A stretch of DNA of 62,175 nt. Source: an uncultured beta proteobacterium (GTDB lineage Bacteria > Pseudomonadota > Gammaproteobacteria > Burkholderiales > Burkholderiaceae_C). The notes below the pieces were generated by a model. That model did no database searches. It was given only the letters and a program-made list of their open reading frames with translations, and was not told the DNA's origin. The stretch is from NCBI GenBank assembly GCA_903828665.1, contig CAIKMZ010000071.1, forward strand, positions 1-62,175, written 5' to 3'. Every line of letters begins with the position of its first letter. Within the stretch, counting starts at the first letter, position 1. Both the position numbers and the translations under genes were made by a program. Below are positions 41,213-61,352 of this stretch, in pieces.

Positions 41213-41602
41213 CTAGACGTTGGCAAGCGCCTGTTCCACGCGTTTGTCGGCCTCGGCCGCGAGCTTGACCAACTGGTCATCGCCGAGGATGCGCATCATG
41301 GCCGAAGGTGCGACCAGTTCAACCGAGATTCGCGTTGGCGCGAGCTGTCGCAGCACGGCGTTGCACGGCAGCAGGCTGGCGACATCGCTGTTGGCTGTGT
41401 AGGCTTCATAAGCCAGATTGGGATTGCAGGCGCCAAGGATTACGGTCGGGATGATGTCCTTGCCCGTCTTTTCCTTGATCTTGCTGTGCATGTCGATGCG
41501 CGTCAGGATGCCGAAACCCTGCTCCGCCAGCGCCTTGGTGACACGCTCGATGCCATGATCCAGCGAATCTGCGATCTCGCGTTTGAAATTGATCTTTGCC
41601 AT
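41213..41602 (-). CDS. DUF302 domain protein
   Basis: A 129-residue cytosolic protein beginning MAKINFKREIADSLDHGIERVTKALAEQGFGILTRIDMHSKIKEKTG, with ILGACNPNLAYEAY and LLPCNAVLRQ, the standard DUF302 blocks. Two conserved cysteines are in these blocks. DUF302 proteins recur beside sulfur-oxidation and thioredoxin genes, but no reaction is established. The start could be nine bases earlier (MDDMAK, 41611). It follows tsdA closely (13 bp) and ends that operon, converging with ArsR. Confidence 0.88.
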   Translation of the reverse strand: MAKINFKREIADSLDHGIERVTKALAEQGFGILTRIDMHSKIKEKTGKDIIPTVILGACNPNLAYEAYTANSDVASLLPCNAVLRQLAPTRISVELVAPSAMMRILGDDQLVKLAAEADKRVEQALANV

Positions 41603-41615
41603 GTCGTCCATCCTG

Positions 41616-42440
41616 TCAAGTGCGTGTGCGTGCATCTTTTGGCCGGTCACCCTTGGGCCAGTCCTTGGCCTTGTGCGGATAGACGGGCCGGGGTTGGTGG
41701 GTGAAGAACGCTGCGACGTCCACGGCATCCTGGTCGGTCAGCGAACCGCCTTGTCCCAAGGGCATATTGTGCTTGACGAAGGCCGCTGCGGTAAAGGTTC
41801 TGGCCATGCCGGCACCATCGTTGAAGGAATCCTTGCCCCACAGTGGCGGAATGCTGTAGACGCCAGCGGGATCTTTCATCCCCAGGCCCTCTGCGCCGTG
41901 GCAGCTCGCGCATTTTTCGGCGAACACTTTCTTCCCGTTGCCGGCGTCGGCCACGAGTTTCTGGTCGATCGCGCCAAATCCACGCCCCTTGACATTCATT
42001 CCGGTGGGCACACCAACCGACAACCATTGCATGTAGGCCAGTATGTTGTTCATCTCGGCCGAGTTGTAGGGCAGCGGCTTGCCGTTCATCGAACGTTCGA
42101 AGCAGTCATTGACCCGGTCCTGCAAGGAGATGACCTTTCCGCTTCTGGAGCGGTATTCCGGGAAGACGCCCCAGATGCCGACCCATGGTGATGAACCGGC
42201 GGTTGTGCCGCCAGCCAGATGGCAGTTGGTGCAGTTCAGTCCGTTTCCAACATTCTTCGGCAGCAGATGCTTTGTTTGCGTCAGCAGTTTCCTGCCTTCC
42301 TGGATGGCAACGCCACTCGGGCCCGCCGGAATGCTGGCATCAGATGGCGGCTTGAACTCGGCCACGGTCACCTGGGCCATGGCGTGGCAGGCCAGCAGTG
42401 CGGTCAATGCCGCGACAGCGATTCTTGATGAATGATTCAT
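41616..42440 (-). CDS. tsdA: Diheme c-type cytochrome, thiosulfate dehydrogenase (TsdA) type
   Basis: A 274-residue periplasmic protein with a signal peptide (about 1-22, ACHAMAQ). Heme sites are CTNCH (70-74) and CASCH (177-181). The segment RVNDCFERSMNGKPLP carries C113, matching the cysteine that ligates the active-site heme in TsdA enzymes. TsdA joins two thiosulfates into tetrathionate and can run in reverse in some bacteria. KHNMPLG offers Met226 as a ligand to heme 2. Start 42440; the upstream extension is unrelated. It lies with a thioredoxin and a permease upstream and DUF302 downstream. Confidence 0.9.
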   Translation of the reverse strand: MNHSSRIAVAALTALLACHAMAQVTVAEFKPPSDASIPAGPSGVAIQEGRKLLTQTKHLLPKNVGNGLNCTNCHLAGGTTAGSSPWVGIWGVFPEYRSRSGKVISLQDRVNDCFERSMNGKPLPYNSAEMNNILAYMQWLSVGVPTGMNVKGRGFGAIDQKLVADAGNGKKVFAEKCASCHGAEGLGMKDPAGVYSIPPLWGKDSFNDGAGMARTFTAAAFVKHNMPLGQGGSLTDQDAVDVAAFFTHQPRPVYPHKAKDWPKGDRPKDARTRT

Positions 42441-47369: not shown

Positions 47370-47705
47370 ATGACCAAGCTTTCAGCAAAGAAACCCCACA
47401 CCGATCTGAACCGGCCGGACGAAGTCTTTGACTTTGCGTCGGAACTGTTCCGCGTTCTGTCGGCACCGATGCGCCTGAAGATCATCAGCTGCCTGCGCGA
47501 CGGGGAGCAGAACGTCAGCTACTTGCTCAGCCACATCAATACCACCCAGCCCAACATGTCGCAGCACCTGAACACGCTGTACAAGGCGGGCGTGCTGGGC
47601 AAACGCCGCGACGGCGTGCAGATCCTGTACCGCATCATCGACGAACGTGTGGCAGCAGTCTGCCAGGCCGTTTGCACCCAGGTCGAGACCAAGTCAAAAC
47701 CTTAG
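47370..47705 (+). CDS. ArsR/SmtB-family regulator, second copy
   Basis: A 111-residue winged-helix protein, FDFASELFRVLSAPMRLKIISCLRDGEQNVSYLLSHINTTQPNMSQHLNTLYKAGVLGKRRDGVQILYRI. Cysteines are at 41, 98 and 102 (IISCLRDG, AVCQAVC). One in the early helices and a pair in the last helix resemble the layout of sulfur-sensing SoxR/SqrR-type members. It lies 185 bp upstream of the octaheme cytochrome gene on the same strand and could control it as well as the sigma factor. Metal sensing is the alternative. Confidence 0.9.
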   Translation: MTKLSAKKPHTDLNRPDEVFDFASELFRVLSAPMRLKIISCLRDGEQNVSYLLSHINTTQPNMSQHLNTLYKAGVLGKRRDGVQILYRIIDERVAAVCQAVCTQVETKSKP

Positions 47706-47820: not shown

Positions 47821-47889
47821 AAACCCGTAGTGCTGGTAAGGGGATTGCCGCACTCAGGCGTATCGGCTTGTTAAGCGAAGGAATATGTG

Positions 47890-49491
47890 ATGCATAATCG
47901 AAACCTGATGGCTGCCGCTATGGCGGCCATTTTTTTTGCCGCAACGGCTTGCGCAGCCACCGCGACGGCGCCGGTCAAGCTGTTGAAATCGACAGCCGAC
48001 CACAGCAAGTTCAAGGAACTGGACCGGGAGTTTGACTCCGGCCCCGCGGTGACCAAGGCCTGCCTGAGCTGCCACACGGAGGCGGCCAAGCAGATCCACC
48101 AGACCCAGCACTGGAAGTGGGAATTCGTCAACCCCGCCACCAAGCAGGTGCTGGGCAAGAAGCACATCGTCAACAACTTCTGCACCTCGGTGCGTTCGAA
48201 CGAAGCGGCCTGCAACAGCTGCCATATCGGCTACGGCTGGCGCGACGACAAATTTGACTTCAGCGTCGAAGAAAACGTTGACTGCCTGGTGTGCCACGAC
48301 CATTCCGGCAAGTACACCAAGCCCTCCGGTTTTGCCGGCCTGCCCGTCACCAAAGACACCGAGTTTCCCGCCGGCTCCGGCAAGATCGTGCGCGGCATCA
48401 ACCTCAAGGAAATCGCCAAGAAGGTCGGGCCGACCACGCGCAGCACCTGCGGCGTGTGCCACTTCAACGGCGGCGGCGGCGACGGCGTCAAGCACGGCGA
48501 CCTCGACACCTCGCTCGACAACCCCGGTCGCGAACTCGACGTGCACATGGATGCCAAGGGCCTGAACTTCGCCTGCGCCACCTGCCACAAGACCGATGAC
48601 CACAAGGTCTCGGGCAGCCGCTACGCCCCCACCGCCAGGGACAAGGCGCCCGCGCACATGCGCGGCGAAGCCGACAAGACCAACCCGGACACCTGCCAGG
48701 CCTGCCACGGCCAGGCTCCGCACAAGGCGGTGCGACTCAACGAGCACACGGCCAAGATCGCCTGCCAGACCTGCCACATCCCGGCCTTCGCGCGCGGCGG
48801 GCAACCGACCAAGATGTCGTGGGACTGGTCCACCGCCGGCAAGCTCGACAAGGACGGCAAGCCCATGATCCTCAAGGACGATGACGGCTACGACAAGTAC
48901 ATGACGATCAAGGGCGACTTTGTCTGGAAGGAAAACGTCAAACCCGAATATGTCTGGTTCAACGGCGTCAACCACTACACGTTGGTCGGCGACAAGATCG
49001 AAAAGGGCGACAAGCCAACTCAGATCAACCATTTCGAGGGCAACGCCAGCGACGGCAAATCGATGATCTGGCCGATCAAGCTGTTCCGCGGCAAACAGCA
49101 ATACGACCCGATCAACAAATCACTGGTCATCACCCACTTGGCCGGCAGCGACGGCACGGCCTTCTGGAAGAACCTGGACTGGGAAAAGGCCGTCACCGCC
49201 GGCATGGCAGCAGGCGGCATCAAGTTCTCGGGCAAGGTCGACTTCATCGAGACCGAGAGCATGTGGGCCATCAACCACATGGTGGCGCCGAAGGCCAAGG
49301 CCCTGGGCTGTGTCGAATGCCACGCCAGCGGCGCCCGGCTGGAAAAGATCGATGGCGTCTACATGCCCGGACGCGGCCGCGATCACGCGAGGTGGCTTGA
49401 GATCGGCGGCTGGGCCCTGGCCCTGCTGACCCTGCTCGGCGTCCTGGGCCACGGAGTAATCCGGGTGGTCTCGCACAAACGCAACAGCTAA
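47890..49491 (+). CDS. Octaheme c-type cytochrome, tetrathionate reductase (OTR) family, membrane-anchored
   Basis: A 533-residue periplasmic protein. Signal peptide about 1-25. Eight CxxCH heme sites begin near residues 58, 108, 132, 187, 229, 269, 292 and 474. The segment NNFCTSVRSNEAACNSCHIGYGW and DCLVCHDHSGKYTK match the OTR family, which reduces tetrathionate, nitrite and hydroxylamine in vitro. A C-terminal helix (about 506-526) anchors it in the inner membrane, unlike soluble OTR. Start ATG 47890 (AAGGAA upstream); a GTG three bases earlier is possible. The FNR-type promoter and the cytochrome b partner suggest anaerobic respiration. Confidence 0.92.
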   Translation: MHNRNLMAAAMAAIFFAATACAATATAPVKLLKSTADHSKFKELDREFDSGPAVTKACLSCHTEAAKQIHQTQHWKWEFVNPATKQVLGKKHIVNNFCTSVRSNEAACNSCHIGYGWRDDKFDFSVEENVDCLVCHDHSGKYTKPSGFAGLPVTKDTEFPAGSGKIVRGINLKEIAKKVGPTTRSTCGVCHFNGGGGDGVKHGDLDTSLDNPGRELDVHMDAKGLNFACATCHKTDDHKVSGSRYAPTARDKAPAHMRGEADKTNPDTCQACHGQAPHKAVRLNEHTAKIACQTCHIPAFARGGQPTKMSWDWSTAGKLDKDGKPMILKDDDGYDKYMTIKGDFVWKENVKPEYVWFNGVNHYTLVGDKIEKGDKPTQINHFEGNASDGKSMIWPIKLFRGKQQYDPINKSLVITHLAGSDGTAFWKNLDWEKAVTAGMAAGGIKFSGKVDFIETESMWAINHMVAPKAKALGCVECHASGARLEKIDGVYMPGRGRDHARWLEIGGWALALLTLLGVLGHGVIRVVSHKRNS

Positions 49492-49504
49492 CCGGAGAAA
49501 CAAC

Positions 49505-50125
49505 ATGTCACGCGTTTATCTTTTCAAGCCTTTCGAGCGCTTCTGGCACTGGTCCCAGGCCTTGCTGATCATCTCCATGCTGGTGACCGGCTTCGAGGTT
49601 CACGGCAGCTATCACCTGTTCGGGTTCGAGAAGGCTGTGGGTTACCACACCATCGCCGCCTGGACTCTGGTGGGCTTGTGGATCTTTGCCATCTTCTGGC
49701 ATGTCACCACAGGCGAATGGCGCCATTACATCCCGACGCTGCAGAACGTCTCCGCGATTGCGAAGTACTACTCGTCGGGCATCTTCAAGGATGAGCCGCA
49801 TCCGTTCCGGCCAAGCCTGCACAACAAGCACAACCCGCTGCAGCGCCTGACCTATCTGGCGGTACTGACCCTGCTCAGTCCCCTGATCTGGTTCACCGGC
49901 TGGCTTTACCTTTTTTATGCCAGTTGGTCGGCCTGGGGCCTGGGCGGTTTGCGACTGGAATGGATCGCCACCGGCCACACGCTGGGCGCCTTCCTGATGC
50001 TGGCCTTCCTCATTTCGCACCTCTATCTGTCGACCACCGGGCACAAGCTCACCTCGCAGATCAAAGCCATGCTCACCGGCTGGGAAGACCTCGGTGACGA
50101 AGCCGCGCCGGGCAAACAGCATTAG
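49505..50125 (+). CDS. Cytochrome b561/b6-type membrane subunit
   Basis: A 206-residue inner-membrane protein with four helices. FKPFERFWHWSQALLIISMLVTGFEVHG and ILWIFAIFWHVTTGEW-like segments hold paired histidines (in FWHWSQ, GYHTIAAW, FWHVTTGEW, TGHTLGAF, ISHLYLST) suited to two b hemes. This family passes electrons from quinol to periplasmic reductases. It lies 13 bp after the octaheme cytochrome gene, so the pair likely forms a quinol-driven reductase. Clear start at 49505 with GGAGAAA upstream. Confidence 0.92.
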   Translation: MSRVYLFKPFERFWHWSQALLIISMLVTGFEVHGSYHLFGFEKAVGYHTIAAWTLVGLWIFAIFWHVTTGEWRHYIPTLQNVSAIAKYYSSGIFKDEPHPFRPSLHNKHNPLQRLTYLAVLTLLSPLIWFTGWLYLFYASWSAWGLGGLRLEWIATGHTLGAFLMLAFLISHLYLSTTGHKLTSQIKAMLTGWEDLGDEAAPGKQH

Positions 50126-50168
50126 CCCGATCAAGATTTTTTTCACGTCAACTTTCCCAGGAGTATTT

Positions 50169-51995
50169 ATGAACAGGACATTCAAGAAGAAATTACTGGT
50201 CGCCCTGATTGCCAGCATGGCGTTGCCGATCGCGGCGCAGGCCGCCGACGCCGACCTGCTCAACAAAATTGAGACCATGTCGCGCGAACTCGAAGCGCTC
50301 AAGGCTCAGGTCAAGGCCAACGAAGCCAAGGCGGCGCAGACCGCGGAACAAGTCAAGGCCGTGGCCTCCAAGACCGATTCGGCAGCGCTCGACGATCTGA
50401 AGAGCCAGGTCACGAAGCTCGAGGGCAAGTCGCTCGGCAAGTGGCTGACCGTCGGCGGCGACTACCGCTTCCGTGTTGACTCGCTCAAAGGCGAGACGCG
50501 GACCTTCACCGACGTCAACGCCACCTTCGCCAATGCGCAGCAAAAACTGCAGGCGGACTTCTTTGCCAACCCGTCCACCGTGGCCGGCTCATCGAGCTAT
50601 TTCGGCGCACCCCAGGCCGGCGGCATGTCCACGGCCGGCGCTCTGAGCGGACTGATGGCGTTTTCCCAGAACATGAACGGCGTCACCAGCTATGACCAGG
50701 CCCGCGCCTTCCTGGCCAACCCGGGCAACGCCGGCATGGTGCAAGGCATGGGCGCCTTCGCCGCCACCGTTCCCGCCTACAAGCCCGAGAACACGAGCCT
50801 GTACAGCAACCGATTCGGCATCGATCTGAACGCCAAGGCAACGCAGGACGTGAGCGTCACCGCGCGCCTGCAGATGTACAAGGTATTCGGCTCGCAGGAT
50901 GAGTCCTCCATCGTGAACTCGGGCAGCGCACCGTTCTTCAGCGACCGCGTCGGCGTCTTTGACGGCACGCTGAGCCATGTGCCCTCGAACAGCTACCTCA
51001 ATGTCGACCGTGTCTACGCGACCTGGAGCAACATCGCCGACAAGGAAATCTGGTTTTCCGTGGGACGTCGGCCGACCACCAACGGCGCACCGAGCAATCT
51101 GCGCCTGAACAATCCGCGCCCGGGCAATGGCGGCACACCGTCGCTGCTGATCGACTACGCCTTCGATGGCATGACGCTCGGCTACGCCCCGGACATCGAC
51201 GGCCTGCCCGGCGCCTATGGCAAGTTCTGCTACGGCCGCGGCTTTGAGAGCGGCTTCAGCAAGTTCGCGGGCAATTCGCTGGTCGATACCGACATGGTGG
51301 GCTTCTCCATCGTTCCGATCGACACCGACCCGCTGCGCGTCTGGCTGATGTGGGATCGCGGCATCAACATCTTTGATGCGCCGACCATGAGCAACACCTA
51401 TTTCGGCAACACCGCTGCCAAGGTCAACCTCGGCGACATCGACTGGTTCGGCCTGGGTGCGATGAGCACGATCAAGAAGGTCGGCCCCGGCGACCTGACG
51501 GTGTTCGGTGACTGGGGCATGAGCAAGACCCACCCGAACAACAACGTCTCGGCCCAGTTCGGCTTCCAGGGGCTGATGACGGGTTCCTTCTTCAGCCCGG
51601 AGGCGCCGACCAGCAAGACCGGCACCGCGGTCTACCTTGGCATGCGCTATGACCTGCCGTCGAAGACCAAGATCGGCCTCGAGTACAACCACGGCTCCAA
51701 GGACTGGATCACCTTCGCACCGGCTTCGGACGACATGTGGACGTCGAAGGTCGGCACGCGCGGCGACGTCGTTGAAGCCTACCTGATCCAGGAACTCGAC
51801 AAGGCGCCGGTCTCTTCGTTCTTCAGCCGCGCCTACTTCCGCCTGGGCGTCCAGCACTACCACTTCAACTACACCGGCAGCAACAACTGGGTCGGCGCAC
51901 CGGTCGAGATGAGCAGCGTCAACGGCCAGATGATGACCACGACGCCGCTCGAAAACGCCACCAATGTCTACGCCACTTTCGAAGTGAAGTTCTAA
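50169..51995 (+). CDS. Outer-membrane beta-barrel protein with coiled-coil N-terminus (DUF3373-like)
   Basis: A 608-residue protein with a signal peptide (about 1-25, AAQAADA), a heptad coiled coil at about 27-85 (LLNKIETMSRELEALKAQVKANEAKAAQTAEQV) and a long series of amphipathic beta strands ending in aromatic residues up to the terminal phenylalanine. That end is typical for Bam-inserted porins. The coiled coil resembles periplasmic SLH-less porins of the DUF3373 type seen near multiheme cytochromes. It could let tetrathionate in. The start at 50169 has AGGAG; the barrel function is inferred. Confidence 0.82.
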   Translation: MNRTFKKKLLVALIASMALPIAAQAADADLLNKIETMSRELEALKAQVKANEAKAAQTAEQVKAVASKTDSAALDDLKSQVTKLEGKSLGKWLTVGGDYRFRVDSLKGETRTFTDVNATFANAQQKLQADFFANPSTVAGSSSYFGAPQAGGMSTAGALSGLMAFSQNMNGVTSYDQARAFLANPGNAGMVQGMGAFAATVPAYKPENTSLYSNRFGIDLNAKATQDVSVTARLQMYKVFGSQDESSIVNSGSAPFFSDRVGVFDGTLSHVPSNSYLNVDRVYATWSNIADKEIWFSVGRRPTTNGAPSNLRLNNPRPGNGGTPSLLIDYAFDGMTLGYAPDIDGLPGAYGKFCYGRGFESGFSKFAGNSLVDTDMVGFSIVPIDTDPLRVWLMWDRGINIFDAPTMSNTYFGNTAAKVNLGDIDWFGLGAMSTIKKVGPGDLTVFGDWGMSKTHPNNNVSAQFGFQGLMTGSFFSPEAPTSKTGTAVYLGMRYDLPSKTKIGLEYNHGSKDWITFAPASDDMWTSKVGTRGDVVEAYLIQELDKAPVSSFFSRAYFRLGVQHYHFNYTGSNNWVGAPVEMSSVNGQMMTTTPLENATNVYATFEVKF

Positions 51996-52016
51996 GCATT
52001 CTTCAAGGAGTTCAAA

Positions 52017-52337
52017 ATGAAATCGAAATTCTCAACACTCATTCTGACGGCCGCGCTCGCCCTGTCGGGCGCCGCCTTCACCGGCAACGCCTTTGCCGAC
52101 GAAGGCAAGATGGTCGGCCCGGTCACCAAGATCAAGCTGGCACCCGATGGCAAGTCGGCATTGGCCACCCTGAAAGACGCCAAGACCGGGGAGCAGGTCA
52201 ATGTCACCATCACCGATGACCTGACGCTGGACAAGTTCAAGGACAAGCGCATCGTCGAGGGCGACGAGATCCGTGCCCGCTTCGACAAGGACGGCAAGAA
52301 CACGGCGAAGTCCTTCAAGAAGACGGCCGGTTGCTGA
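52017..52337 (+). CDS. Small periplasmic protein, unknown function
   Basis: A 106-residue protein with a signal peptide (about 1-27, GNAFADE) and a small beta-rich domain, GPVTKIKLAPDGKSALATLKDAKTGEQVNVTITDDLTLDKFKDKRIVEGDEIRARFD, ending KKTAGC with a lone terminal cysteine. Its layout resembles residues 24-95 of the triple rhodanese encoded next (52526), as if one domain exists both free and fused. The terminal Cys could carry persulfide. AAGGAG ribosome site 10 bp upstream. Not recognised as a named family. Confidence 0.82.
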   Translation: MKSKFSTLILTAALALSGAAFTGNAFADEGKMVGPVTKIKLAPDGKSALATLKDAKTGEQVNVTITDDLTLDKFKDKRIVEGDEIRARFDKDGKNTAKSFKKTAGC

Positions 52338-52525
52338 GCCGCAAGCAAGCTGTGATTGTGGGCCCCGGCCCGCAATCCATGCTGCGTGTGGCACTGAATC
52401 CCGGGGCAAGCCCGGGATGACAAGCAGGGGATGGGATAACAACAGAGCGGTCCGACACAAGAACCGCGCGGTCCGAGCTGCGCACAGGCGGGCTGGAACA
52501 CACCACGCTTGAAGAGGGATCAACC
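52338..52525. repeat. REP-like hairpin and 9-bp direct repeats between the small protein and rhodanese genes
   Basis: ATCCCGGG-GCAAG-CCCGGGAT (52398-52418) is a perfect 8-bp stem of the kind scattered as REP elements in proteobacteria. Before it, TTGTGGGCC / GGCCCGCAA (about 52356-52375) forms a near-perfect stem. After it, GCGGTCCGA occurs at 52447-52455 and 52468-52476, 21 bp apart. The rhodanese may therefore have its own promoter, or the region tunes mRNA decay. No gene is seen here. Confidence 0.55.
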
Positions 52526-53791
52526 ATGACGAAATTTCGCTTGTCCACCATCACCTTGACCCTGGGCCTTGGACTGGTCACGGCGGCAATGGCCGACGAG
52601 CTGACCGGCAGTGTCAAGAATGTTTCCAATACGGCCCGCACCATTGCGGTCGAGGTTGCGAACAAAGGGGTTCACGTCTTCAAATTTGACGCGCAGACCC
52701 AGTTCAGGAACACTGCATCTGCAGCCGATATCATCCCGGACGAGGTCATCACGATCGACTTCGCGCAGACCGGATCGGAGAGCCGCGCCAAAGTGGTCAC
52801 CAAGGTGATCGCGCCGCTGCCGGCCGGCGTGACCCGCATTGACGCGTCCGCCCTGAAGGCCCTGCTGCAAAAAGGTGGCGAAAGCTTCATCCTGATCGAC
52901 TCCCGCCCTGCCGGGCGTTATGTCCAGGGGCACCTGCCGGGCGCCATCTCGATCCCGCTCAACGAACTCGAAAAGGACGGCCCCAAGCTGCTGCCGGCGG
53001 ATCTGAACAAGACGCTGGTGTTCTATTGCGGCGGGCTGTCCTGCATGCTCAGCCCCAAATCGGCCACGATCGCGGTCAAGTTGGGGTTCAAGGATGTCCG
53101 CATGTTTCCCGAAGGTGAGCCCGGCTGGAAGAAGCTCGACTACGCCACCGAATCAAGCCTGTCGTTCGTCAAGAGCGGCAACATCGTCCTGATCGACCTC
53201 AGGCCGGTCGACCAAGCGGCTGGCGGCCATATTCCGCGTGCGGTGAACATCCCGCTGGCGCAGCTGAAGAACGCCGAAAAGCAATTCCCGGAATTTCACG
53301 GTGCAGCGATTGTCTTCTACGCCGACCAGGACGCACAGGCCATCGAGGCGCTCGAATGGACGCGTGAATGGGAGTACCCCAATGCCACGCTGTTCGCCGG
53401 CGGCGCCAGGGCCTGGCTGGCGGCCGGAAACCCGTTGCTGACCGGAGCGGTGCCGACCAGAATCAGTTATGCCCGCAAGCTCGCCGACGGCGAGGTGGCG
53501 ATCAAGGACTTCGAGGAAATCGTCAAGACCGGCTCCCAATTGATTCTGGATACCCGCACGCCGGAGGAATTCGCCAAGGGGCGCTTCCCGGGCGCCGTGA
53601 ATATCCCGGCCGAGGAAATGGCGCGGCGTTACGCGGAGATTCCTGCGGACAAGCCCGTTGCGCTGCACTGCTCGACCGGCACGCGTGCCGAGCTGGCGTA
53701 TGACATCCTCAAGGAAAAAGGCATCAAGGCCCGCTACCTGCGCGCCAATGTCGAATTCCTTGCGGGCAACCAAGTCTTGATCAAGGAATAG
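52526..53791 (+). CDS. Periplasmic three-domain rhodanese with N-terminal beta domain
   Basis: A 421-residue secreted protein. Signal peptide 1-23, small beta domain about 24-95, rhodanese 1 about 105-205 with C168 in FYCGGLSC, rhodanese 2 about 212-305 with no loop cysteine (VFYADQDAQA), and rhodanese 3 about 325-421 with C382 in ALHCSTGTRAE. Rhodaneses shuttle sulfane sulfur as a cysteine persulfide. The middle domain is probably structural or binds a partner. Standing behind an octaheme tetrathionate-family cytochrome, it may accept or supply sulfane sulfur in the periplasm. No family with this exact layout is known to me. Confidence 0.9.
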   Translation: MTKFRLSTITLTLGLGLVTAAMADELTGSVKNVSNTARTIAVEVANKGVHVFKFDAQTQFRNTASAADIIPDEVITIDFAQTGSESRAKVVTKVIAPLPAGVTRIDASALKALLQKGGESFILIDSRPAGRYVQGHLPGAISIPLNELEKDGPKLLPADLNKTLVFYCGGLSCMLSPKSATIAVKLGFKDVRMFPEGEPGWKKLDYATESSLSFVKSGNIVLIDLRPVDQAAGGHIPRAVNIPLAQLKNAEKQFPEFHGAAIVFYADQDAQAIEALEWTREWEYPNATLFAGGARAWLAAGNPLLTGAVPTRISYARKLADGEVAIKDFEEIVKTGSQLILDTRTPEEFAKGRFPGAVNIPAEEMARRYAEIPADKPVALHCSTGTRAELAYDILKEKGIKARYLRANVEFLAGNQVLIKE

Positions 53792-53924: not shown

Positions 53925-54683
53925 ATGACCTCCTCCATCTTTGAATTCGGACAGCGCCTTCCTGAATACGACGTTGCAGTGCTCAACGAACGCGCCGTTC
54001 GGGCCGGTGCCGGCATCCTGTTCTTTTTTGCCATCATTGCGTTCATGAACGCCTGGCTGGTGGGCAACTACCAGCCGACGCGCGTCTTCGTACTGCTGTT
54101 CCTGATCGACTTCACGCTGCGGCTGTTCGTCAATCCGCGCTACGCGCCAAGCCTGATCATCGGCCAGTGGGCGGTGCGCAAGCAACAACCCGAGTACGTC
54201 GGCGCGCCGCAAAAGCGCTTTGCCTGGGCCATCGGTTTTGTGCTGGCGCTGGCCATGCTGTACCTGATGGTGATCCACCAGGTGATCGGTCCGATCAACA
54301 TGATCGTCTGCTCGTCCTGCCTGCTGCTGCTGTTCTTCGAAGCGGCATTCGGCATCTGCATCGGCTGCAAGATCTACAACCGGTTCAACAAGGAGGCGGC
54401 GCAACTGTGCCCCGGCGGCAGCTGCGAGCTCGCGCCGCAGCAGCGCATCCGCACCAGCATGGCCCAGGTGATCGTTCTGCTGCTGTTCTTCGCGATGCTC
54501 GGCGTGATCTGGCAATGGGTCTACCGCACGGGTTCACCGCGCCTGACGCCGGTCGCGCCGGCTGTCAACGCGGCACCGGCAACACCGGTCGATCCGGCCG
54601 AGGCGCAGCGCTGCAAGGTGCCCGATTTCGCCAAGGCCATGGGCCACGAAGAGAAGTGGAAGCTGCACAACAACTGCCGGTAA
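53925..54683 (+). CDS. Cysteine-rich DUF4395-like membrane protein
   Basis: A 252-residue inner-membrane protein. About five helices: two at 28-68, then 100-120, 124-147 and 180-200. It has paired cysteines C129/C132 (VCSSC) and C145/C148 (GICIGC) and then C162/C167 (LCPGGSC), a layout suiting thiol or persulfide exchange across the membrane. The DUF4395 name is from memory of the block FDFTLRLFVNPRYAP...GFCIGCKIY. The C-terminal periplasmic-looking tail (about 205-252) is proline-rich then charged. It is followed six bases later by an exporter operon. Confidence 0.8.
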   Translation: MTSSIFEFGQRLPEYDVAVLNERAVRAGAGILFFFAIIAFMNAWLVGNYQPTRVFVLLFLIDFTLRLFVNPRYAPSLIIGQWAVRKQQPEYVGAPQKRFAWAIGFVLALAMLYLMVIHQVIGPINMIVCSSCLLLLFFEAAFGICIGCKIYNRFNKEAAQLCPGGSCELAPQQRIRTSMAQVIVLLLFFAMLGVIWQWVYRTGSPRLTPVAPAVNAAPATPVDPAEAQRCKVPDFAKAMGHEEKWKLHNNCR

Positions 54684-58595: not shown

Positions 58596-59042
58596 TCAAC
58601 ACTTGGCACCGGCGGGGCACGCTGCCGTCATGGCGTTGACCGGCACGACCGTGCGCCCCTCACGGGTCCAGCCGTTCATGCCGGAGGTGACGTTGTAGAC
58701 GGTCTTGTACCCGGCCTGTTGCGCGAGAAACTGCGCCGCCGTGCGTGAACGGTTGCCGCTGCGGCAGATCAGGACGACGCTCTGGCCCGGTTTTATGGTC
58801 GTCTTCAATTGCTGCAACCAGGCCGGTGCATCGACCTGGCCTTTTTCATCAAAGAATGTCAGCAGCTTGCTGCCCGCAACGACTCCCGTCTCCTTCCATT
58901 CGGGCGCGGTCCGGATATCGATGACCGCCGCGCCACTGGCGACCAGACGCGCCATTTCCGCGTTGTCGACGTTGACCACCTCGGCATGCGCGGCCCAGGC
59001 GCACAGGCTCAGAAGGGTGACAACACAGGCTTGCTTGATCAT
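58596..59042 (-). CDS. Periplasmic single-domain rhodanese
   Basis: A 148-residue secreted protein. Signal peptide about 1-20 (AWAAHAEV), then DNAEMARLVASGAAVIDIRTAPEWKETGVVAG and the active loop LICRSGNRSR with C93. The tail PAGAKC has extra cysteines (about 142 and 148). It transfers sulfane sulfur in the periplasm. It lies six bases upstream (in reading sense) of mlaA and divergent from a cytosolic rhodanese at 59203. Confidence 0.93.
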   Translation of the reverse strand: MIKQACVVTLLSLCAWAAHAEVVNVDNAEMARLVASGAAVIDIRTAPEWKETGVVAGSKLLTFFDEKGQVDAPAWLQQLKTTIKPGQSVVLICRSGNRSRTAAQFLAQQAGYKTVYNVTSGMNGWTREGRTVVPVNAMTAACPAGAKC

Positions 59043-59202
59043 GAACGTACTTTCGCATTGTGAATTGCATGCGGCCGCACGCGGCGTATGCTGCGTTCGG
59101 AAGGGGCCATTGCATGCAGGCGCGCCGATCCAGGACGGCGTGGAAAAATTCCCTCAACACAGCGATAATATCAGTCCCTGCTTAACTATTTCCAGGACTC
59201 CG

Positions 59203-59583
59203 ATGAAGACAGCCCACGATCTCGTCGCCGCCGCCAAGGCGCGCATTGCGGAAATCCCGGTGGCCGAGGCCGAACAAGCGATCCTTGACGCCGACGTCCT
59301 GCTCGATGTGCGCGAGGCCGACGAATACGCGGCCGGACACCTGAGCGGCGCCATCCATGCCTCGCGCGGTCTGCTCGAGTTCAAACTCAGCGCCAGCCCG
59401 GAACTGAGCTCGCGCGATCTGCGCATCGTTCTGTACTGCAAGACCAGCGGACGCGCCGCGCTGGCCGCCTGCGCCCTGCACGACATGGGCTACCTGCAGG
59501 TCAAGTCCATAGCCGGCGGTTTCGATGCCTGGGTCGCGGCCGGCAAGCCGGTCGTCAAGCCGAGCCTGCCCGCCTTCGAATAG
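59203..59583 (+). CDS. Cytosolic single-domain rhodanese
   Basis: A 126-residue sulfurtransferase without signal peptide. DVLLDVREADEYAAGHLSGAIHASRGLLEF and the active loop VLYCKTSGRAALAA with C79; the end GFDAWVAAGKPVVKPSLPAFE is typical. The start is ATG 59203; a longer in-frame ORF through the antisense rhodanese is rejected. It lies seven bases before a persulfide-dioxygenase-like gene, the usual pairing for oxidising glutathione persulfide made by SQR. Confidence 0.93.
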   Translation: MKTAHDLVAAAKARIAEIPVAEAEQAILDADVLLDVREADEYAAGHLSGAIHASRGLLEFKLSASPELSSRDLRIVLYCKTSGRAALAACALHDMGYLQVKSIAGGFDAWVAAGKPVVKPSLPAFE

Positions 59584-59589
59584 GCTCCT

Positions 59590-60468
59590 GTGTCCGAGGT
59601 CTGTGCCGTGCCAACACCGCTCATCGCGTCCTTCTTCGATCCCGCAACGTTCACCGTCAGCCACGTGGTCTCGGACCCGGTCAGCCTGCAGGCTGCGATC
59701 ATTGACAGCGTGCTGGACTATGACCCGAAATCGGGCCGGACTTCACACGCCAGCGCCGACAAGCTCATCGACCACCTGACGCGCGAGGGCCTCAAGCTGG
59801 AGTGGCTGCTCGAAACGCACGCCCATGCCGACCATCTTTCGGCGGCGGCCTACCTGCAGGGAAAGCTTGGCGGCAAGCTGGCCATCGGGCGTCCGATCTG
59901 CGAGGTGCAGCGCACGTTCAAGAAGATTTTCAACCTCAAGGATCAGGACACGACCGGCGCCGACTTCGACCAGTTGCTTGACGACGGCGACCGTTTCCGG
60001 ATCGGCGAGATCGAGGTTGGCGTCATGCGCACCCCGGGCCACACGCCGGCCTGCCTGACCTTTGTCATCGGCGCGAATGCCTTCATCGGCGACACTCTGT
60101 TCATGCCCGACTACGGTTCGGCCCGTTGCGATTTTCCCGGTGGCGACGCCGCCACGCTGTACCGATCGGTCCGCCGGATTCTGGCGCTGCCACCCACGAC
60201 GCGGCTGCACCTGTGCCACGACTACCCGCCCGAGGGGCGCGCGCCGGCCTGGGTCACGACGGTGGCCGAGCAGCGCGAAAAGAACATCCATGTCCACGAC
60301 GGCATTGACGAAGCTGCGTTTGTCCGTCTGCGCGAAGCACGCGACCGGAGCCTTTCCATGCCGGTCCTGCTCCTGCCGGCGGTGCAGGTCAATATCCGGG
60401 CAGGCAAGCCGCCGGCGCCTGAAGACAACGGCGTCAGTTATCTCAAGATCCCCCTCAATCTGCTCTGA
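59590..60468 (+). CDS. Persulfide dioxygenase-like metallo-beta-lactamase-fold protein (ETHE1/Blh type)
   Basis: A 292-residue protein. The iron-site motif is THAHADH (76-82), with further ligands in RTPGHTPAC, IGDTLFMPDYGSARCDFPGG and LCHDYPPEG. DYGSARCDFPGGDAATLYRSVRRIL is the mark of the persulfide-dioxygenase group within the glyoxalase-II-like fold. It turns glutathione persulfide plus O2 into sulfite. The start is GTG at 59590. With the rhodanese (7 bp upstream) and the TauE exporter (60546) it forms a sulfide-oxidation trio: persulfide to sulfite to export. Confidence 0.93.
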   Translation: MSEVCAVPTPLIASFFDPATFTVSHVVSDPVSLQAAIIDSVLDYDPKSGRTSHASADKLIDHLTREGLKLEWLLETHAHADHLSAAAYLQGKLGGKLAIGRPICEVQRTFKKIFNLKDQDTTGADFDQLLDDGDRFRIGEIEVGVMRTPGHTPACLTFVIGANAFIGDTLFMPDYGSARCDFPGGDAATLYRSVRRILALPPTTRLHLCHDYPPEGRAPAWVTTVAEQREKNIHVHDGIDEAAFVRLREARDRSLSMPVLLLPAVQVNIRAGKPPAPEDNGVSYLKIPLNLL

Positions 60469-60545
60469 TGGAACACACGCAAATCATGGTGCAGCTTTTT
60501 GTCAGTGCGAACAAAGCCTGGCAATCCCTGCAGTAGGCCAGGCCA

Positions 60546-61352
60546 ATGGAATCGATCTCCCTCGCGCTCGTTCTGGGCGCCCTCATCGGCCTGGTGATGG
60601 CGCTCACGGGTGCGGGCGGCGGCGTGCTGGCCATTCCGCTGCTGGTGTTTGGCCTGCATCTGCCGCTGCAGCAGGCGGCGCCGATCGGCCTCGTGGCGGT
60701 CGGCCTGGCGGCCTTGATCGGGGCCGTGCTTGGCCTGCGCCAAGGCATCGTGCGTTACCGGGCGGCGGCGCTGATCGGCGCCGTGGGCATGCTGGTCGCC
60801 CCCCTTGGCGTCTACCTGGCGCAGCGGCTGCCAAACCGTCCGCTGATGGGCGCCTTTGGCCTGGTCCTGATCTATACCGCCTGGCGCATGCTGCGGCGCC
60901 CCGTCCAGGCGGCGCAGTTGCCGGTGTCGGTGCTGTGCCGTGTCAACAGCAAGGACCAGCGCCTGACCTGGACCCGACCCTGCGCGCTGGCGCTGGCCGG
61001 CACCGGCTTGATCGCAGGCCTGCTCAGCGGTCTGCTCGGCGTTGGCGGCGGATTTGTCATCATTCCGGCGCTCCGGCGCCACACCGACCTGGACATCCGC
61101 AGCATCCAAGCGACGTCGCTGGCCGTGATCGCCCTCGTTTCCATCAGCGCCATCGCGAGCGCCGCCTTGCATGAGCCGGTGCGCTGGAGCGTGGCCCTGC
61201 CGTTTGCCGCAGGTGCCGTGCTGGCTCTGCTGCTGGGCCGCGCCGTCGCGCAAAAGCTTGACGCCCAGCGCCTTCAGCAGGCCTTTGCCTGGTTCTGCGC
61301 CCTGATCGCCCTGCTCATGCTGGGGCGCGCCCTGGGCTGGATTGCCAATTGA
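60546..61352 (+). CDS. TSUP (TauE/SafE) family anion exporter
   Basis: A 268-residue inner-membrane protein with about eight helices and two repeated motifs GALIGLVMALTGAGGGVLAIP and GLIAGLLSGLLGVGGGFVIIPAL. The family moves sulfite, sulfoacetate and related anions out of the cytosol. It lies 77 bp behind the persulfide-dioxygenase gene, which would make its substrate sulfite (inference). ATG at 60546 follows GGCCAGGCCA. Confidence 0.92.
   Translation: MESISLALVLGALIGLVMALTGAGGGVLAIPLLVFGLHLPLQQAAPIGLVAVGLAALIGAVLGLRQGIVRYRAAALIGAVGMLVAPLGVYLAQRLPNRPLMGAFGLVLIYTAWRMLRRPVQAAQLPVSVLCRVNSKDQRLTWTRPCALALAGTGLIAGLLSGLLGVGGGFVIIPALRRHTDLDIRSIQATSLAVIALVSISAIASAALHEPVRWSVALPFAAGAVLALLLGRAVAQKLDAQRLQQAFAWFCALIALLMLGRALGWIAN

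Follow-up and report, generated by a model that had tools for sequence, protein, structure and literature searches.

The window analysed here is a whole contig of 62,175 nucleotides (contig C71) from the 3.74 Mb, 167-contig genome of an uncultured beta proteobacterium, and the system in question is a row of plus-strand genes around an octaheme c-type cytochrome of the OTR family. The initial annotation had described an octaheme cytochrome, a cytochrome b, an outer-membrane barrel, a secreted small protein and a secreted triple rhodanese in this order; family matches bore out both content and order, all five genes being found at their described positions on the + strand with successive gaps of 13, 40, 21 and 188 bp. 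Genes were called with a simple longest open reading frame (ORF) script and secretion was assigned by a crude rule. The small protein, whose importance the initial annotation overlooked, looks central to the system: it ends in an invariant cysteine, and unrelated small proteins ending in cysteine recur beside OTR in other lineages. The features are as follows.

47370..47705, +, ArsR-family regulator (PF01022; NF033788 over cut-off)
47887..49491 (start GTG 47887 or ATG 47890), +, OTR-family octaheme c-type cytochrome with C-terminal membrane anchor (TIGR04315, 1sp3)
49505..50125, +, b561-type membrane cytochrome b (CytB), putative quinone partner (PF01292)
50166..51995, +, DUF3373 outer-membrane porin-like barrel with N-terminal helical stretch (PF11853)
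52017..52337, +, small secreted OB-fold-like protein, candidate C-terminal-cysteine sulfur carrier, ending ..FKKTAGC (homolog alignment, AF2, Foldseek)
52526..53791, +, secreted triple-domain rhodanese with N-terminal extension (three PF00581 stretches, 146.2 bits)
53925..54683, +, DUF4395 membrane protein adjoining the rhodanese, membership of the unit uncertain (PF14340, 97.6 bits)

Components and conservation of the gene unit

The closest OTR relatives of the window lie in uncultured beta-proteobacterial, Rhodoferax and Comamonadaceae metagenome bins. A close set of 38 named loci was taken from one profile scan of genome contigs and 36 were mapped; the counts omit L067 and L071, and fractions were counted only where the flank was long enough. 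Among all loci studied, L137 and L155 yielded no OTR map. CytB stands at OTR in 30/31 loci, the exception (L055) having CytB by tblastn. The barrel is present in 26/27 and the small protein in 23/25, the exceptions being L070, where both are missing and the opposite strand encodes a monoheme cytochrome and a triple rhodanese, and, for the small protein, L064, where it is present as an overlapping ORF. OTR, CytB, barrel and small protein are conserved together as a unit across Rhodoferax, Zoogloea and their relatives, and since the same gene order recurs in these relatives the four-gene unit is more than a product of chance. Zoogloea ramigera and Propionivibrio dicarboxylicus (L064, L066) are among those with all four genes. 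A downstream rhodanese was found in 13 of the 22 close loci (12 of the 13 triple), and in L051 YeeE replaces it after the small protein. The coupled module of the initial annotation is supported; the rhodanese, missing from 9/22 close loci, is linked less tightly than the barrel.

The octaheme cytochrome belongs to the OTR family, with 626.7 bits against TIGR04315 (curated cut-off 375, model positions 1-440) and a match to 1sp3 over nearly its full length (E=1e-111). It contains eight CXXCH motifs, and its only other cysteines are Cys22, in the signal peptide, and Cys99. Cys99, Asp199 and Lys202 align with Cys64, Asp150 and Lys153 of 1sp3, which we take to be the active-site residues. The non-heme cysteine at the Cys99 position was found in 114/115 OTRs; it had been considered as a marker of carrier-type OTRs, those with a terminal-cysteine partner (see below), and was rejected as family-wide. 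The C-terminal membrane anchor that had been described is present as a hydrophobic stretch of mean hydropathy 2.0; by this measure it is missing in just 11/115 OTRs (three cut by contig ends, one a fusion), so that it is usual in the family and not special to this locus. PMC13188914 lists a TIGR04315 protein that contains selenocysteine (WP_331457571.1).

CytB matches PF01292 with 84.8 bits. Its best NCBIfam model is the PhsC-like PRK15006 (114.6 bits, below the cut-off of 204), which recalls the PhsABC thiosulfate reductase, but the catalytic partner here is an octaheme cytochrome, whereas that of PhsABC is a molybdenum enzyme. CytB adjoins OTR or shares its ORF in 36/39 phylum-level loci, the other three being Shewanella-type, and the two lie in one ORF in L139 and L183. 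From this linkage and these fusion ORFs, electron exchange between quinone and OTR by way of CytB is a well-supported prediction; the direction from quinol to OTR is a guess. Other cytochrome arrangements were also seen: in L124 the gene after an anchor-less OTR is a 751-aa ORF that contains seven heme motifs and matches CytB, and in L148, L149 and L154 a pentaheme cytochrome precedes OTR-CytB and eight-heme and four-heme proteins follow.

The barrel belongs to DUF3373, with 493.6 bits against PF11853 (gathering cut-off 26.1) over model positions 1-409 of 409. Its AlphaFold2 (AF2) model, of low confidence (mean pLDDT 54.4), is porin-like with an N-terminal helical stretch, and Foldseek matches OmpF, PorB, AlgE and DcaP (best E 3.9e-9, TMq about 0.3). 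An outer-membrane barrel together with a multiheme cytochrome resembles the MtrCAB-type porin-cytochrome conduits, but the window barrel best resembles diffusion porins and AlgE by structure, and the operon encodes a single multiheme cytochrome, which has an anchor helix of its own. The linkage of DUF3373 was examined in Pseudomonadota, in 397 phylum-wide genomes and 120 relatives. A match was found in 5/397 and 24/120, with the window genome in both sets and 26 others in all; all 26 have an OTR match, and in 25 of them DUF3373 and OTR lie on one contig within a few kb (separate contigs in G071). The OTR match in G021 and G048 is a fragment at a contig edge, and in G091 the two genes lie on opposite strands. 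DUF3373 is missing from most OTR genomes (40/397 genomes pass the OTR cut-off). Because the family is listed also from other phyla (PMC4827864) and is tied to gastroenteritis strains (PMC12746109), its linkage with OTR need not hold outside Pseudomonadota. In L115 the DUF3373 gene of a Shewanella-type genome (10070-11796) is interrupted by a stop.

The small protein has 106 residues and matched no Pfam or NCBIfam family, the SoxY family (PF13501) included. In 24/24 aligned homologs (60-94% identical) the last residue is cysteine, within ..SF(K/R)KTAGC, and in the mature window protein it is the sole cysteine; this invariant terminal cysteine is a new point. The AF2 model is mostly beta, with five strands and a helix (mean pLDDT 63.8), and its last three residues (104-106) fall below 50; the best Foldseek matches are OB folds at E about 0.01, with none at 0.001. 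A conserved cysteine on a flexible C-terminal tail, as in SoxY- or DsrC-like carriers, is thus found in all 24 sequences, the tail being modelled with low confidence, and the protein looks like a candidate sulfur carrier. Homology to the N-terminal domain of the rhodanese seemed likely by eye and was rejected (hhalign probability 1.5%). A SoxY search found none in the window genome, so that the OB-type protein may stand in for SoxY there; 8/12 OTR genomes searched encode SoxY.

Terminal-cysteine partners and the sulfur context of OTR

In distant OTR operons, small proteins of other families carry cysteine at the last or next-to-last residue. Monoheme cytochromes ending ..TCG, ..KCS or ..SCS were found in L109, L111, L113, L115, L117, L128 and L157, and in L070 on the other strand; a heme-less homolog ending ..AACD occurs in L138 and L140 (BLASTP E=2e-4 against the monoheme type). 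DUF302 proteins with Gly-rich tails such as PGGGGAGGTDVGGC are the partners in 10 loci, and SoxY proteins ending ..TAGGC, ..GACG or ..GGCG lie in the OTR operons of L117, L180 and L183, with SoxZ accompanying SoxY in L180. BLASTP gave no significant match among the OB, DUF302, SoxY and monoheme types. Carrier labels in these first locus sets were assigned after inspection. An operon gene ending in cysteine was found in 25 distant loci; L124, L136, L144 and L163 were excluded from the carrier loci because this gene is of no recognised carrier family, and L118 was counted although its small gene lies on the other strand. The openly licensed PMC papers searched were not found to describe terminal-cysteine partners of OTR as a group.

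Such endings are concentrated in the operons. Small operon proteins ended in this way in 34/45 cases versus 6/50 among others (two of the six being themselves partners), as selected by the crude secretion filter. Among genes of 80-199 aa the counts were 48/130 in operons versus 20/389 elsewhere, and with the close set excluded from the operon side 22/74 versus 20/389 (Fisher p=7e-9, indicative only because the loci are related). DUF302 offers a comparison within one family: the 14 genomes concerned hold 70 matches, of which ten, in ten genomes, adjoin OTR and all end in cysteine, and of the other 60 the 30 that were read gave 0/30. The window has a DUF302 gene of its own at 41213-41728 (-), far from OTR and without the cysteine tail.

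Two other interpretations of upstream proteins were rejected. Proteins of about 181 aa, taken for rhodaneses like that of L112, proved to be of the DUF302 type. Proteins of 412-453 aa had been taken for ExtI-like porins; of six scanned, two are YeeE-type (PF04143), and the other four are an ankyrin protein, a sigma-54 regulator, a FadL-type barrel (L126) and a protein of no family (L121, by eye a wrong-frame ORF).

On a quick tree of 94 OTRs, which has long branches (L186, L185, L141, L124), the OB type (14) and the DUF302 type (10) each form one group, two SoxY loci pair up, as do two heme-less loci, and the monoheme type amounts to two changes. OB, DUF302 and five monoheme rows together form one 29-row group, all with a partner (SH-aLRT 87, not starred), whereas these partners are absent from the neighbouring rows L121 and L122 and from a 40-row group; within the 40-row group, L136, L144 and L163 have some operon gene ending in cysteine.

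The association was then followed in a later set of 40 order-level loci with 41 OTRs, typed by best BLASTP hit and not by tree. A partner was present with 30/30 evaluable carrier-type OTRs versus 0/9 of other types (one doubtful ORF), counts in which related loci are not independent, even between the first and the later sets; the OTRs of L217, L221 and L247, for example, are 90% identical to those of L107, L111 and L118, respectively. In two of these loci (G085) the OTRs had been matched earlier and the surroundings had not yet been seen. The tailed protein accompanies 19/19 DUF302-type OTRs; the secretion filter overlooked it in L217-L220 and at the second OTR of L226, where reading the sequences revealed it. 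Of 13 monoheme/OB-type OTRs, 11 were evaluable (contig ends truncate L221 and L232) and a partner accompanies all 11, that of L247 being encoded on the opposite strand. L234 and L237 were typed OB yet carry a monoheme partner, so that the OTR type predicts a partner but not which one, and L241 has monoheme and OB-type partners together with a triple rhodanese and the barrel. Among the nine other-type OTRs no partner of these families was found, L256 having only 191 bp upstream; a 106-aa ORF ending ..STCN in L251 was taken for chance. A looser two-strand scan gave more cysteine-ending ORFs in L221 and, on the opposite strand, in L248, L250 and L251; these were taken for chance.

In the window rhodanese, domains 1 and 3 keep their cysteine and domain 2 is without it; Cys168, Cys173 and Cys382 are present in 8/8 close rows. 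Sulfur genes lying up to 8 kb from OTR were surveyed for 80 distant loci, 22 carrier and 58 other. The triple rhodanese was found in 7/22 carrier loci versus 0/58 others, YeeE in 4/22 versus 0/58, and any rhodanese above 40 bits in 7/22 versus 2/58. Three of the 58 blur this split: L124 has, after the 751-aa ORF, two proteins that resemble YeeE/YedE by eye, of which the second matches a rhodanese and has ..GGCA as its end, and in L112 and L175 a single weak rhodanese adjoins OTR. With the 13 later monoheme/OB-type OTRs, a triple rhodanese lies nearby in eight and YeeE in nine. A lack of co-conservation of barrel and rhodanese with OTR, which the initial annotation had named as refuting its system, was not seen: the barrel is closely linked, and the triple rhodanese recurs in several lineages.

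Proposed mechanism and alternatives

In SoxYZ and DsrC carriers, a cysteine on the C-terminal arm of a small protein holds sulfur for an enzyme. SoxY itself sits in three OTR operons, as described above; the window small protein differs in its OB-like model and its lack of a Pfam or NCBIfam family, and is a putative carrier. We favour, with some reserve, an enzyme of the periplasm, linked to quinone, that acts on sulfur attached to such a terminal-cysteine arm, the carriage of sulfur being what we infer. Sulfur oxyanions would enter through the DUF3373 porin, and a sulfane or thiosulfonate group would be loaded on the C-terminal cysteine of the small protein, as on SoxY or DsrC; archaeal sulfur-transfer proteins are reported to form Cys-thiosulfonates with tetrathionate (PMC4175335). 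The flexible carrier tail would enter the OTR active site, where Cys99 lies next to the catalytic heme, and there the S-S bond held by the carrier would be reduced with electrons from quinol through CytB, a direction that is a guess. The triple rhodanese, judging from its family and linkage, could move sulfane sulfur between the carrier and other acceptors. The quinol-driven periplasmic sulfur system of the initial annotation is in this way partly upheld, by the quinone link through CytB, the porin-like barrel and the sulfur context of triple rhodanese, YeeE/YedE and SoxY. We would give about even chances to the wider proposal that a major OTR branch is carrier-dependent and has as its physiological substrate a chain of sulfur attached to the C-terminal cysteine of a periplasmic protein dedicated to this task, and that at least four unrelated families (OB-like, monoheme cytochrome, DUF302 and SoxY) were independently recruited to this role.

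Several observations weigh against carrier-bound sulfur as the substrate. No partner of the recognised families was found in 58/80 distant loci, and the non-heme cysteine of OTR also occurs in OTRs without a nearby carrier gene, so that it is no marker of carrier use. The downstream rhodanese is absent from nine of the 22 close loci, and a rhodanese or YeeE within 8 kb was found in 0/10 DUF302-type and 0/3 Shewanella-type loci. The CytB label is absent in 5/39 class-level loci, L180 included (34/39 labelled, without a tblastn recheck), and the AF2 model of the small protein is of moderate confidence only. The terminal cysteine may also serve docking or disulfide exchange without carrying sulfur. 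The OTR of S. oneidensis, moreover, is reported to reduce tetrathionate, nitrite and hydroxylamine as free substrates (PMC4484225), and a carrier is accordingly not needed in vitro.

The main rival keeps the same parts and reverses the direction: OTR-CytB would oxidise carrier-bound sulfane sulfur and pass the electrons to quinone, as a heme-based counterpart of SoxCD. This is possible, though we hold it unlikely. SoxY, SoxZ and YeeE/YedE, all found as OTR partners, occur in known sulfur oxidisers, b561-type cytochromes can operate in both directions, and SoxY is encoded in most of the 12 OTR genomes searched for it; on the other hand, the window genome gave no SoxY. In its favour, a lucinid symbiont otr adjoins soxY-S3 and soxZ, a neighbourhood already noted in PMC11237559; against it, the characterised OTR is described as a reductase (PMC4484225). 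We also consider it rather improbable that the terminal cysteine is a docking or thiol-disulfide arm, for electron delivery or assembly, and no sulfur carrier. One partner family being a monoheme cytochrome, a natural electron shuttle, would suit such an arm, but the heme-less homolog keeps the cysteine, and SoxY, whose cysteine carries sulfur, is present in the same operons.

There is little to recommend a unit that is a nitrite or hydroxylamine reductase with the sulfur genes as passengers: in the 80 distant loci the triple rhodanese and YeeE occur only with carrier-type OTRs, and no nitrogen-respiration gene was seen among 25 partner proteins scanned with Pfam, a small part of all neighbours. 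For it speak the reported reduction of nitrite and hydroxylamine by OTR, which also binds STC in Shewanella (PMC4484225), and an octaheme protein of D. dismutans, its family not established as OTR, whose level rises strongly during nitrate ammonification (PMC12142623). Least probable of all, and very unlikely, is the reduction of metalloid oxyanions such as selenite and tellurite, as in the Geobacter ext cluster. Compared by description only, extHIJ(KLMNOPQS) is the nearest described trio of this kind (PMC5877670): extH, extI and extJ encode rhodanese-like, porin-like outer-membrane and 104-aa small proteins, accompanied by cytochromes, and extI deficiency lowers selenite and tellurite reduction. 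However, the cytochromes listed there have 5, 12, 10 and 4 hemes, and none is an octaheme OTR.

With the characterised Shewanella oneidensis OTR (1sp3, SO4144) the window protein shares the family and the residues Cys64, Asp150 and Lys153. A DUF3373 barrel adjoins OTR in the Shewanella-type loci too, and a monoheme protein ending ..TCG precedes it there. The OTR of L113 closely matches 1sp3 (E=4e-263), and this locus has the monoheme protein, the barrel and OTR in succession; PMC5955497 lists SO4142 as a periplasmic monoheme cytochrome c. In all three loci of the Shewanella type, however, OTR is without anchor, without CytB and without rhodanese within 8 kb, whereas the window has the anchor, CytB, an OB-type small protein and the triple rhodanese.

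In our judgement the natural substrate of OTR has been unsettled since the 2004 structure (PMC11237559 cites papers on it of 2004 and 2007), both sulfur and nitrogen activities being reported (PMC4484225), and a linked small protein with a single cysteine makes this question directly testable. The carrier reading, if true, would make OTR a heme-based periplasmic counterpart of DsrC-DsrAB and SoxY-SoxCD, with DUF3373 as its porin in some lineages, and annotation in metagenomes as plain tetrathionate or nitrite reductases would need revision. Possible roles are also offered for DUF3373 and for the tailed DUF302 subgroup.

Regulator and neighbouring genes

The ArsR-family gene upstream probably regulates the operon, as its position suggests. 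Its product scores 60.9 bits against the BigR model NF040642, below the cut-off of 155. Cys98 and Cys102 are present in 15/15 aligned rows and Cys41 in 10/15. A sulfane sensor of the SqrR/BigR/SoxR type was considered; the spacing of 57/61 between these cysteines differs from that in SoxR, in which the two conserved cysteines, 50 and 116, are 66 apart (PMC10451225).

Downstream, the DUF4395 protein follows the rhodanese in L041, L045 and L048 and lies further down in L043 and L046; the window protein ends ..HNNCR and a related fragment in L042 ends ..HNHCQ. A plasmid search with OTR gave five matches, in Paracoccus and Photobacterium, and one with the barrel gave no match; the two plasmid OTR loci examined have OTR-CytB in an operon without a terminal-cysteine partner or triple rhodanese. 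On a Paracoccus plasmid (L145, 6522-9533), OTR comes right after a suf-type operon that ends in a cysteine desulfurase gene.

Further along the window lies a second sulfur-flavoured stretch (58705-61349, +), where genes for a rhodanese, a metallo-beta-lactamase-fold protein and a TauE/SafE permease follow one another. A separate small secreted rhodanese at 58596-59042 (-) ends ..MTAACPAGAKC and thus also has a terminal cysteine, and similar small rhodaneses in L041 and L048 end ..CATGVKC and ..CAAGAKC, respectively.

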